A stretch of 64,000 nucleotides of DNA from Acinetobacter sp. A2 (GTDB lineage Bacteria; Pseudomonadota; Gammaproteobacteria; Pseudomonadales; Moraxellaceae), in contig NZ_JAAZQX010000010.1 of assembly GCF_012371325.1 (NCBI RefSeq), positions 1-64,000 of the forward strand. Reading direction: 5' to 3'. The position numbers were made by a program, and so were the translations under genes. Shown in pieces: positions 12,317-16,990 of the stretch (the first letter of the stretch is position 1; each line of letters opens with the position of its first letter). Under the pieces are notes generated by a model. That model saw only the letters and a list, made by a program, of their open reading frames with translations, did not search any database and had not been told where the DNA came from.

Positions 12317-13249
12317 TTAAAACCTGAAACGCAAACCTGCAGCATATAACCAACCCTGTTCAGATGGCGTGGAAGTTTGCCAAGCCGTATGCTGATTGCC
12401 TTTATGATAGGCATACCCCACATCTACATAGGGCATAATGTTTTTATTCACCTCATAACGTAGCTCAAGTCCTGCTGCCACATGACTTAAACCCGTTTTT
12501 TGTGCATATCGAGTATCATCACTGATCTGCAGTTTCACATCTAAATATGGCTGTGCAATCCACTTTTGGGTAAGCAGCAAATCGCGAGTTGTTTCCAACT
12601 CCACTGCCGCATAGTGATCATGGCCAACATAGACATGAGCATCGGTTTCAAAGAAATAAGGCGCTAGACCATGCAAGCCCAGCACGACATCTAAGCTTTC
12701 TTCAGTATCAGTTTGCTGTACCAATTCAGCAGTCTGATTGCGATAACGCACACCTGCCTGCACATCCCAAAAGTCTGAAAGCATGCGGCTATATAACAGC
12801 TTGGCATCATATTCAGTCGGTTGTGATTCATGCTTAGTACGATGAATTTTCAAAAATAATTTATTTTCATCGGTTCCGATACGGGTTTGTAATTCAGACT
12901 GCAATGCACCCTCACCGGATTCATTGAGCTGCCATTGTGTATCAACCGTAGTTACGGCATAGATTTGCGCACCATGCTCTTGACGATGATCATGTGGTTG
13001 CGACTCTGGCAAGGAGATGACTGACTGATGCGACTGATGCGACTGATGCGACTGATGCGACTGATGCGACTGATGCGACTGATGCGACTGATGCGACTGA
13101 TGCGATGCTGAATCAGATACAACTACAGTTGCAAGCATAGATGCACCTGAATGGGCAGCATGTGATGCGGTTTCAGCCATCACCCCACCACTCAAACTAC
13201 ACACTGAAACACCAAGTACAGATTTGGCAAAAAGATTAATGATGCGCAT
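12317..13249 (-). CDS. copB: Copper resistance protein B (outer membrane)
   Basis: CopB/PcoB proteins are outer-membrane beta-barrels that act with CopA in periplasmic copper handling. The 310 residues have a signal peptide (cleavage near VMAETA), then a His/Ser/Gln region with nine SHQ repeats encoded by a 9-bp tandem repeat, then the CopB barrel from about 95. Visible landmarks are LLYSRMLSDFWDVQAGVRYR, YFFETDAHVYVG and a terminal LRFRF as expected for a barrel. The start at 13249 is preceded by AGGAGA and overlaps the end of copA by 14 bp, so the two are translationally linked. Confidence 0.88.
   Translation of the reverse strand: MRIINLFAKSVLGVSVCSLSGGVMAETASHAAHSGASMLATVVVSDSASHQSHQSHQSHQSHQSHQSHQSHQSHQSVISLPESQPHDHRQEHGAQIYAVTTVDTQWQLNESGEGALQSELQTRIGTDENKLFLKIHRTKHESQPTEYDAKLLYSRMLSDFWDVQAGVRYRNQTAELVQQTDTEESLDVVLGLHGLAPYFFETDAHVYVGHDHYAAVELETTRDLLLTQKWIAQPYLDVKLQISDDTRYAQKTGLSHVAAGLELRYEVNKNIMPYVDVGYAYHKGNQHTAWQTSTPSEQGWLYAAGLRFRF
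13025..13105. repeat. Nine tandem 9-bp units encoding the SHQ repeat of CopB
   Basis: Nine copies of CTGATGCGA, with no mismatch between copies, lie in frame inside copB. Perfect identity at the DNA level implies recent expansion and suggests copy-number variation among strains. The product is a histidine-rich, potentially copper-binding stretch. Confidence 0.9.
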
Positions 13250-15083
13250 GTTGCTCTCCTTTTTGCTCAGTACTGTCCTTTCCTTCATTAGACGCAATTG
13301 GCGTGCTTGAACGCTGATCATCGCTGACGTGAGCCACAATTAACTTATTCATCATTCCTGCACTCATGTGATAAAGCAGATGACAATGTATAGCCCATTC
13401 CCCAAGTTCATCTGCGGTTAAAAGTGCCGTGACAGTTTTGCCAGGCGGCACAATTATCGTGTGCTTATTGGGTAAATCTTTCGCAGTTTGACCATTTTCC
13501 AGTTGCATAAACATGCCATGTAAATGCATTGGATGCGCCATCATGCTGTCATTAATAAACTTAATCCGAATCCGTTCGCCATATTGCACCTGTAACGGCT
13601 CCGCCTCACTAAACTTCTTACCATTGATGGTCCAAATATAACGCTCCATCGTACCGCCTAAACGAATCACCAATTCACTCGTCGGCTCGCGAGTATCTTT
13701 CTGCGGTTGCAGCGCTTGTAAATCTGCATATTGCAAGGCTTTATGGCCTACAGGTGTAGAGGCATTGGCCCAACCATATACCACAGTCGAATCATTTTTC
13801 TTTGAAGCTGTGTTGTGCTGAGAATGATCTATGTCTGATGTCACGGCATGGTTCTTTTTAGAGTGATCCATTTCTGACATCGCTGCATGATTCATTTTGG
13901 AGTGATCCATTTCTGACATCGCAGTGTGGTTCATTTTAGAGTGATCCATTTCCGACATTGCAGCATGGTTCATTTTGGAATGATCAACGTCTAAATGTTC
14001 TGAGCCATGCCCCATATCTTCCATCGTGAGTAAAGCACGTGGGCGTGATTGCGCTACATGCGGCATCTGCATAGTGGGTAGTAGTTCATTTTGTAAGCGA
14101 CCCAAAGCAAAACCCGAACGATCAATCGATTCGGCTTCAATTGCATAATGTGCGGCTTTAGGCTCAACAACGACATCATAGGTTTCGGCGGTTCCAATAC
14201 GAAACTCATCGACACTGACAGGTTTCACAGGCTGACCATCGGCACTGACTACCGTCATTTTTAGGTTTGGAATCCGAACATCATAAAAAGACATCGCCGA
14301 CGCATTAATAAAACGCAGGCGGACTTTTTCATTTGGCTTAAACTTGCCCGTCCAGTTTTGTTCAGGCGTTTTACCATTCATCAAAAAGGTATAGCCCGTG
14401 ACATCGGAAAGATCGGTTTTCAGCATCCGCATCTGGTTCCACATTTTACGGTCTGACCAAGTGGCTTTTAACCCATCACGCTGAGTTTGACGCAAAACAT
14501 CAGCCAAAGTTTCACGCCGATTTTGATAGAACTCTGCAGAAATTTTTAAATCTTTCTGAATTTGATTACTAGATTTTTCATGGAAATCTGACAACATCAC
14601 CACATAATCACGATCTGTTTGTTCATGTGCTGGTAAAGGCTGTTTGGCTTGAGGATGAATGAGCAATGCACCATATAAACCGTCTTGCTCCTGACCTTTG
14701 GAATGTGCGTGATACCAATAAGTACCACTTTGACGTACTTTAAATTGATAAACAAAATGCCCCTGCGGCTTAATTCCCCTAAAACCATTAAAAGCGGGTA
14801 CGCCATCCATTAAGCCTGGCAGCAATAAACCATGCCAATGAATCGATGAGTCCTGATTTTTTAATTGATTATGAACATGAATTACTGCGTCATCGCCCTC
14901 TTCAAATTCAAGTAGAGGCGCAGGAAACTGACCATTGACGGTAATGCGCTTTACAGATTTACCTGTGATATTCACGGTTTGTTCTGCAATGGTAAGGTGG
15001 TATTCCTTAACTGCTGCAAAAACAGCATTGGAGCATAATGCGCAGGCACTTAAAAACAGTGCACGCTGATAAAATTTAGACAT
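13236..15083 (-). CDS. copA: Copper resistance system multicopper oxidase
   Basis: Periplasmic multicopper oxidase of the CopA/PcoA family. It oxidises or sequesters Cu(I). The 615 residues have a signal peptide (to about residue 23, FAAVKEY) that lacks a clear twin-arginine motif, which is unusual for the family. The four copper motifs are intact: HWHG, HAHS, HPMHLHG and HCHLLYHM. A Met/His-rich insert at about 365-430 repeats MDHSKMNHAAMSE in five 13-residue units. copB overlaps its 3' end. It is very probably co-transcribed with the upstream Cys/His-rich gene. Confidence 0.93.
   Translation of the reverse strand: MSKFYQRALFLSACALCSNAVFAAVKEYHLTIAEQTVNITGKSVKRITVNGQFPAPLLEFEEGDDAVIHVHNQLKNQDSSIHWHGLLLPGLMDGVPAFNGFRGIKPQGHFVYQFKVRQSGTYWYHAHSKGQEQDGLYGALLIHPQAKQPLPAHEQTDRDYVVMLSDFHEKSSNQIQKDLKISAEFYQNRRETLADVLRQTQRDGLKATWSDRKMWNQMRMLKTDLSDVTGYTFLMNGKTPEQNWTGKFKPNEKVRLRFINASAMSFYDVRIPNLKMTVVSADGQPVKPVSVDEFRIGTAETYDVVVEPKAAHYAIEAESIDRSGFALGRLQNELLPTMQMPHVAQSRPRALLTMEDMGHGSEHLDVDHSKMNHAAMSEMDHSKMNHTAMSEMDHSKMNHAAMSEMDHSKKNHAVTSDIDHSQHNTASKKNDSTVVYGWANASTPVGHKALQYADLQALQPQKDTREPTSELVIRLGGTMERYIWTINGKKFSEAEPLQVQYGERIRIKFINDSMMAHPMHLHGMFMQLENGQTAKDLPNKHTIIVPPGKTVTALLTADELGEWAIHCHLLYHMSAGMMNKLIVAHVSDDQRSSTPIASNEGKDSTEQKGEQHAHH
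13811..14000. repeat. 39-bp tandem repeats encoding the Met/His-rich insert of CopA
   Basis: The landmark TGATC recurs at 13825, 13864, 13903, 13942 and 13981, an exact 39-bp period. The inner three units are nearly identical; the outer two are diverged. Each unit gives a 13-residue MDHSKMNHAAMSE-like segment with Met and His ligands. The number of units is likely to vary among strains. Confidence 0.85.
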
Positions 15084-15807: not shown

Positions 15808-15900
15808 TCTTTTCCAATGGAGAAAATTGATTAAAACAGTCCGATTTAAAAACCTACTAAAACAATCAAGTTATATATTAAGCAACTTATTTTTATGATT

Positions 15901-15929
15901 CACTGAGTAAATACTCAATAAATTCAGTG
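15901..15929. other. Nested inverted repeats in the AT-rich spacer
   Basis: CACTGA (15901-15906) and TCAGTG (15924-15929) flank a second palindrome GAGTA-AA-TACTC (15905-15916). It lies between the rpe terminator and the copper-operon promoter. The purpose is unknown. Confidence 0.35.
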
Positions 15930-15943
15930 TATTTAAAACAAAC

Positions 15944-15969
15944 AAAAAGGATTTAATTGAATCCTTTTT
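15944..15969. terminator. Bidirectional-looking terminator downstream of rpe
   Basis: A perfect stem AAAAAGGATT/AATCCTTTTT has a 6-nt loop, with T-runs on both strands. For rpe (minus strand) it lies 143 nt after the stop, leaving a long 3' UTR that contains the DnaA-box-like array. Confidence 0.8.
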
Positions 15970-16028
15970 ATACTTATTTTGTATAAGTCATAAACAGTTG
16001 ATGTACAAATGTTTATAAATTAATAGGC

Positions 16029-16085
16029 TTATCCATAGTGTTATCAACATAGATATCCATACGGTTATCTACAAAGTTATCCACA
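16029..16085 (+). repeat. Array of five DnaA-box-like 9-mers at exact 12-bp period
   Basis: TTATCCATA (16029), TTATCAACA (16041), ATATCCATA (16053), TTATCTACA (16065) and TTATCCACA (16077) all lie in the same orientation, each start 12 bp after the last. The last is a perfect match to the gammaproteobacterial DnaA box TTATNCACA; the others differ by one or two bases. The 180 bp to the left are very AT-rich. No replication gene is near. A DnaA-binding (titration or activation) site is an inference. Confidence 0.65.
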
Positions 16086-16111: not shown

Positions 16112-16798
16112 TTATACTTCAACTGCGCCCACTTTTGCCAATTCAGCGCGCATTTCGTCAATCACAGTTTTATAGTCTGGCTTACCAAAAATTGCTGAGC
16201 CTGCAACAAACATATCTGCACCCGCTTCCGCAATCTCACGAATGTTGGCAGGGCCTACGCCACCATCAACTTCTAAGCGAATATCACGACCTGAAGCATC
16301 AATAATTTGACGTGCCTGACGCAGTTTTTCCAAAGTCATTGGAATGAATTTTTGCCCACCAAAACCTGGGTTCACACTCATTAATAATATTTGATCGACT
16401 TTATCTAACACATAGTCCAAATAATGTAATGGTGTCGCAGGGTTAAAGACTAAACCTGCTTTTGCTCCGCCCGATTTAATCAATTGCAATGAACGGTCAA
16501 TATGCTCTGAAGCTTCAGGGTGGAACGTGATAATGTCCGCACCTGCTTCCAAGAAATCACCAATCATACGGTCTACAGGTTTCACCATTAAATGCACATC
16601 AATTGGTGCTGTAATGCCATAATTTTTCAGTGCCTTACACACACCTGCACCAAAAGTTAAGTTAGGTACATAGTGATTGTCCATGACATCAAAATGCACC
16701 ACATCTGCACCCGCCTGCAGCACATTTTCAACCTCTTCACCCAAACGGGCGAAGTCTGCAGACAAAATAGAAGGAGCAATTAAATAAGGCTTAGACAT
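16112..16798 (-). CDS. rpe: Ribulose-phosphate 3-epimerase
   Basis: Interconverts ribulose 5-phosphate and xylulose 5-phosphate in the pentose phosphate pathway. The 228-residue TIM barrel has [15 protein letters not shown], the metal ligands in [16 protein letters not shown] and DVHLMV, the phosphate loop [14 protein letters not shown], and LEVDGGV. The start [10 protein letters not shown] at 16798 is preferred; 12 further in-frame codons upstream look non-conserved. It is divergent from the DUF2218 gene. Confidence 0.95.
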
Positions 16799-16990
16799 GG
16801 GAGAACCTAGCTGAATATTGGGATTGTGGCGCATTATAGCAAAGACTGACTGGCTTGGTTAAACCCGTTGCGATTCAATGATTCTATATCCGCAACGCTC
16901 TGTTGCACCCTCCCGCTCGATTTTTTGAATGACTTTGTTATGGTAAATATCCTTCCACTTATTTTAGCAAGATGGCGGTTGCTACAGATC

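Follow-up and report, generated by a model that had tools for sequence, protein, structure and literature searches.

What could a row of five DnaA-box-like sites be doing behind rpe, where an earlier note on this DNA had placed them far from any replication gene? The stretch analysed here (the window) comprises 64,000 nucleotides, and the array occupies positions 16029..16085 of its forward strand, in the 3' region of rpe (ribulose-phosphate 3-epimerase; 16112..16834, reverse strand), an ORF that matched TIGR01163 with 323 bits against a cut-off of 212.6. Among the ORFs of at least 60 aa listed for the window, none covered the array. Its five 9-mers lie in the same orientation and start at 16029 (TTATCCATA), 16041 (TTATCAACA), 16053 (ATATCCATA), 16065 (TTATCTACA) and 16077 (TTATCCACA), with 1, 1, 2, 1 and 0 mismatches to TTATCCACA, respectively. 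Every step is exactly 12 bp, which confirmed the coordinates and the perfect right-end box reported in that note. This perfect unit (16077..16085, forward strand), the strong box, is the rpe-proximal one and is counted as unit 1.

The last two units (16065..16085, forward strand) have the form of the E. coli "double DnaA box", in which a weak box is followed after 3 bp by TTATCCACA (PMC11317965, in part). When double boxes were taken as 9-mers near TTATCCACA lying 2-3 bp apart in the same direction, the array contained four overlapping pairs, all with 3-bp gaps. Chains of at least three units occurred in the 64-kb window at this array alone and in none of 20 windows obtained by plain base shuffling. 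Across the 2.70-Mb assembly, a degenerate three-unit pattern gave three overlapping matches, all at the array, and the reversed-pattern control gave none. The E. coli DnaA-box rule is TTATNCACA; single boxes of this kind numbered 5 in the window (4.6 expected), which is chance level, indicating that the array itself is the signal.

The 180-bp flank left of the array (15849..16028) was as A+T-rich as had been claimed (78% A+T versus 58% for the window) and holds an IHF-like site and a terminator. The array had also been placed between the rpe stop and the rpe terminator. The stop side of this placement stands on the ORF, and the terminator side on an A+T-rich hairpin with a T-run (15944..15969), which we read as the rpe terminator by eye and which the automatic terminator scan did not list. 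In the alignment, several relatives carried a stronger stem at this place. A consensus scan gave the site TAAACAGTTGATG (15991..16003, forward strand), which agrees with 8 of the 9 fixed positions of the IHF consensus TAAnnnnTTGATW (taken from PMC10950094, in part) and keeps a fixed offset in relatives. On the far side of this site, TTATACAAA (15978..15986, reverse strand) appeared as TTAGACA or TTATACA in relatives when the alignment was read by eye, and by its letters it is possibly a sixth DnaA box, weak and inverted. Elsewhere in the window, the ORF at 12317-13339 contained a perfect 9-bp repeat in 9 copies (13023-13105), and a CopA-like ORF (13236-15083) contained a 39-bp repeat (13821-13985).

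Conservation of the array and of the adjacent IHF consensus

The genus was represented by 99 genomes, 97 of which had an Rpe match; G012 and G030 had none and stand outside the 97 (G012 is 99% complete). A search of the 500 nt following the rpe stop located all five units in 82 of the 97 loci, at mismatch sums of 5-12, and conservation in related species, which had been set beforehand as a test, was thereby borne out. The sums were 22-26 in the 15 loci without the array and 20-25 in the shuffled controls (one per locus, preserving base composition only). The 82 arrays are mutually related sequences, and 80 of them keep the step exactly with no unit more than two mismatches from the box. The strong box was perfect at the rpe-proximal end in all 82, a count to be read with the register having been picked to favour a perfect unit 1. 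Information per column was 1.25-1.50 bits in the array blocks, 0.24-0.31 bits from rpe to the array, and 0.64-0.94 bits in the seven full blocks beyond it; the flanks diverge between loci while the array is kept. The array began 16-30 nt past the rpe stop in 73 of the 82 loci and 39-299 nt past it in 9.

The looser form of the IHF consensus matched the window 113 times on the two strands, so that a lone match of the quality of 15991..16003 means little. At offset 82, measured in nt from where the strong box begins, agreement was at least 8/9 in 43 of the 82 arrays and at least 7/9 in 64, compared with 1 of 4510 (0.02%) and 0.5%, respectively, at other offsets. A thinned set of 30 arrays less than 85% identical gave at least 8/9 in 18 and at least 7/9 in 24. 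The match at offset 82 fell below 7/9 in 18 of the 82 arrays, which counts against the explanation preferred below. The IHF score of locus L079 was lost because the array was one unit out of register there. IHF-alpha was present in all five genomes checked, and SeqA in none of them.

A search of the family (57 of 61 genomes matched; 29 new loci examined) included four further genomes of the genus, two with the array (G296 and G276) and two without it (G285 and G265). In the sister genus g98, a shorter form with three recognisable units stood at the corresponding place in 4 of 4 loci (sums 12-15), whereas none of 19 loci from seven further genera in the family had the array. Among the best 80 of 592 loci, 11 of the 12 from named Acinetobacter species, which overlap the set of genus genomes, had the array (A. 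pollinis was without it). The 68 loci from other bacteria among these best 80 gave no sum of 13 or less; the lowest sums, 15 and 18, were by eye not box arrays. On the rpe tree, whose support is partly weak, absence of the array was clustered (7 changes versus 14.2 with shuffled labels). This clustering, together with the short form in g98, would fit an old element that was lost several times. Because it is missing from 15 of the 97 rpe loci and from two of the four further genus genomes, the array is dispensable, which likewise counts against the preferred explanation.

Model R1 gave some match in 97 of the 99 genus genomes, the weak ones of which may be chance and were not counted as arrays. 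Outside the genus it reached E<=0.01 in 46 of 145 genomes of the order and matched 15 of 16 of the family, mostly weakly, and of these the g98 matches alone were used. The window's own genome contained two more weak array-model matches of about 19 bits (C23:536-615 and C33:59917-60025). The closed 2.4-Mb genome G077 (L095, L228) had no R1 match, no rpe array and no box pair at nrdA, and may have lost the entire set of arrays. A structured RNA was rejected as an account of the array, the 25-row alignment having shown no consensus pairs and Rfam no match.

Related arrays at recB-recD, nrdA and oriC

The recB-recD junction carried a second array with the 12-bp step and three to seven units, overlapping the recD start or just before it, in all 20 loci chosen (L141-L160), which were hand-picked from R1 matches and are not a random sample. 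It was present in 7 of 7 chosen loci from genomes without the rpe array. In the window's own genome it lies at C11:85525-85559 (around 2525 of L141), and the RecD of this genome fitted TIGR01447 and its RecB, as a fragment, TIGR00609. The one g98 recB-recD locus read (L208) had seven units. An array at this place could couple RecBCD supply to DnaA. Protein coding was rejected for it on inspection by eye: in L142 and L146, a stop falls within the array, or directly after it, in the frame of the units.

Upstream of nrdA, itself a target of DnaA in E. coli, 20 of 22 genomes (L209-L230) carried TTATCCACA followed after 3 bp by TTATCTATA (19 genomes) or TTATCTCTA (G046); the pair was missing in G055 and G077. 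In g98, three of four nrdA upstream regions (L194, L196 and L197) held a four-unit chain; the fourth, L195, was a model match that failed the chain test. Taken with the recB-recD arrays, these sites are suggestive of a DnaA regulon.

The gap between rpmH and dnaA in the window's own genome contained nine boxes with at most one mismatch and a three-unit 12-bp chain. Chains of this step, of two or three units, occurred in 8 of 10 oriC regions with full upstream length. We also observed in the own oriC (L101, around 1100-1180 and 1350) TTTGAATTTAAA-like palindromes that resemble the AamA methylation motif TTTRAATTYAAA (PMC10483419, in part) and are a possible stand-in for Dam/SeqA marking. The motif TAAACA, seen beside several arrays, was dropped, as it was not kept in the oriC regions read. 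In 10 genomes, box pairs with gaps of 0-20 bp numbered 51, compared with 15 for the reversed pattern. Pairs with a 3-bp gap numbered 16 in these genomes, 15 of them at rpe, recB-recD or oriC and one at the second array match of G010, indicating that the array is not a generic repeat, the second test set beforehand that it passed.

Candidate functions of the rpe array

In the cell, E. coli DnaA favours box pairs of the same direction 2-3 bp apart; the double-box form occurs at E. coli datA, polA, purH and nrdA, and DnaA binding at purH was strongly cut by altering either box or inserting one base (PMC11317965, in part). The 12-bp step of the array matches that of E. coli DnaA on neighbouring boxes described there, in agreement with the earlier proposal that the spacing suits DnaA molecules side by side. 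At E. coli oriC, the strong box R4 is followed 3 bp away by C1 and then by weak boxes of the same direction 2 bp apart, and DnaA is recruited by R4 onto C1 and then along these weak boxes (PMC4451416, in part). The DnaA of the window's genome was 47% identical to that of E. coli, and its domain IV recognition stretch reads GGRDHSTV (GGRDHTTV in E. coli). Judging from these sequence comparisons, DnaA very probably binds the rpe array, and we lean towards a role of the array in replication control. A negative action, in the direction of datA, is plausible, if not quite to be expected.

The best reading, which we hold tentatively, is an extra-oriC assembly locus for DnaA and IHF that withdraws or inactivates DnaA and works like datA. 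What the sequences themselves show is the array with its spacing and polarity, its conservation, the IHF consensus at a constant offset, the position remote from oriC, and an architecture common to the sites at nrdA, recB-recD and oriC. From these we infer that DnaA, preferably in its ATP form, and IHF bind the rpe array and that its effect on initiation is negative. DnaA would first occupy the strong box (16077-16085) and then the four weak boxes successively in one direction, as from R4 to C1-I3-C2-C3, and IHF would bend the DNA just beyond the last weak box and stabilise a short DnaA oligomer. The assembly would take DnaA, most likely ATP-DnaA, away from oriC. Inactivation of DnaA might be promoted after a passing fork has doubled the site, and transcription of rpe toward its terminator could clear or limit the complex. 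The rpe gene was co-directional with the replication fork in 14 of 14 array-bearing genomes measured. A broader idea, on balance doubtful, is that Acinetobacter controls initiation through DnaA/IHF loci of its own, the five-box filament site at rpe and the three-to-seven-box array at recB-recD, as independently evolved counterparts of datA and DARS, the second of them tying the DnaA level to RecBCD supply. The lack of SeqA in the five genomes checked is the context of this idea.

The chief rival, unlikely but serious, is local transcription control: DnaA bound to the array would block transcription behind rpe or assist the terminator there, and would so shape the 3' ends of rpe mRNA or shield the next gene, and the array would be one site of a DnaA regulon with nrdA and recD. 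The sister arrays speak for this rival and against the assembly locus, since they touch nrdA (upstream, 20 of 22 genomes) and recD (at its start, in the 20 chosen loci), which favours gene regulation; the rpe array also sits along the direction of rpe transcription, ahead of the hairpin. However, it lies behind rpe and not before it, inserts separating the two are tolerated, and the next gene varies. In the 30 loci nearest to the window's Rpe, the longest ORF behind the array was CopA-like in 11, the small ORF found ahead of copA in the window in 6, methylguanine-methyltransferase-like in 12 and SugE/SMR-like in 1. Reactivation as at DARS, in which the array would promote ADP release from DnaA and favour initiation, is rather improbable. 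The combination of DnaA boxes with an IHF consensus is that of DARS2 (PMC4585315, in part), but all five units here point one way, whereas boxes of either orientation occur in the E. coli DARS2 stretch, and DARS2 requires Fis.

It is less probable still that a protein other than DnaA reads the 12-bp repeat. The weak units (16029-16073 and relatives) are of two alternating kinds, giving a 24-bp super-period. In the 82 arrays, units 2 and 4 were mostly TTATAAACA, TTATCAACA or TTATCTACA (unit 2 also TTATCCATA in 22), and units 3 and 5 mostly TTATCCATA, ATATCCATA or TTATCCACC. Position 5 of the weak units was mostly C and position 6 variable, the reverse of the E. coli rule, which speaks for another reader; position 6 is C in the E. 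coli box consensus, and its variation also counts against the assembly locus. Against such a reader, the strong unit is a perfect DnaA box in 82 of 82 arrays, unit and step recur in oriC and upstream of nrdA, and the recognition stretch of DnaA is nearly unchanged.

The earlier suggestion of a small origin or a datA/DARS-like locus held for the general class of the latter and failed for the former. The array does bring together DnaA boxes, an IHF consensus and an A+T-rich flank, as a reserve or cryptic origin might. However, dnaA and oriC lay 565-770 kb from rpe, on either arm, in 15 closed genomes of relatives (14 with the array; the assembly of the window consists of 71 contigs). The array is therefore not an origin, and its remoteness from replication genes was as had been stated. 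Dif-like sites stood opposite dnaA, at 0.465-0.532 of the genome from it, in 11 of those 15 (the pattern matched 12 of 20 genomes), which places the start of replication beside dnaA and away from the rpe array. GC skew showed no clear switch within the window, and the short flank includes a terminator. A cryptic origin is thus highly improbable. As fractions of the genome, the distances from oriC were 0.151-0.220 for the rpe array and 0.095-0.122 for the second array (15 genomes; recB-recD genes read in 8, the other 7 placed by the second R1 match), compared with 0.101 for E. coli datA and 0.206 for DARS2. These distances look suggestive, but conserved distance was dropped as evidence of replication control because the nrdA control varied as little (coefficients of variation: nrdA 0.082, rpe array 0.086, second array 0.075). 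Nothing was found in favour of chance or a generic repeat. With 82 of 97 loci carrying the array, and with the shuffle, reversed-pattern and box-pair controls, this account is refuted and has a negligible claim.

Comparison with known DnaA-binding loci

Loci outside oriC that control DnaA are known from E. coli (PMC4585315 and PMC12371093, in part). They are well worked out there; in the open-licence literature searched, where the term datA discriminated poorly, we found little for other gammaproteobacteria and no earlier description of this array. If the rpe array is an assembly locus for DnaA and IHF, then its compactness, its wide conservation and its row of one strong box and four ordered weak ones would make it a clean natural substrate for the growth of DnaA filaments, on which titration or inactivation could be tested directly in a genus that includes important pathogens. 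In Bacillus subtilis, DnaA-box clusters are dispersed titration sites outside oriC.

The right half of E. coli oriC (R4-C1-I3-C2-C3) likewise consists of one strong and four weak boxes, closely spaced in one direction, and its strong box lies 3 bp from the first weak box, as in the rpe array (PMC4451416, in part). Its weak boxes are 2 bp apart, whereas the rpe array keeps 3 bp at all steps, and no origin lies at rpe. The double boxes of E. coli nrdA, polA and purH comprise two boxes 3 bp apart in the same direction (PMC11317965, in part), and Acinetobacter nrdA has one of this kind; at those E. coli genes two boxes stand at promoters, whereas at rpe five stand behind the gene. DARS1 and DARS2 likewise lie away from oriC and consist of DnaA boxes that include a 12-bp pair in each case, and IHF acts at DARS2 (PMC4585315, in part). 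Beyond the direction of the boxes and the need for Fis at DARS2, they differ from the rpe array in their three-box core and in lying at other loci.

At E. coli datA, DnaA boxes are combined with a single IHF site, and transcription of the operon upstream runs through the locus (PMC10950094, in part). The rpe array resembles it as a DnaA-box cluster with an IHF site, here a match of letters to the consensus, downstream of a transcribed gene and away from oriC, and its step and polarity are also those of the datA double box TTGTAAACA-gag-TTATCCACA. However, the DnaA boxes of datA flank its IHF site, whereas all five units of the rpe array are on one side, with a doubtful weak inverted motif on the other; datA lies by a tRNA-Gly operon (glyX/glyY) and queG, and the array behind rpe; and the longest close-set chain is two units at datA and five at rpe. 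Because layout and place differ in these ways, we did not file the rpe array as a member of datA.
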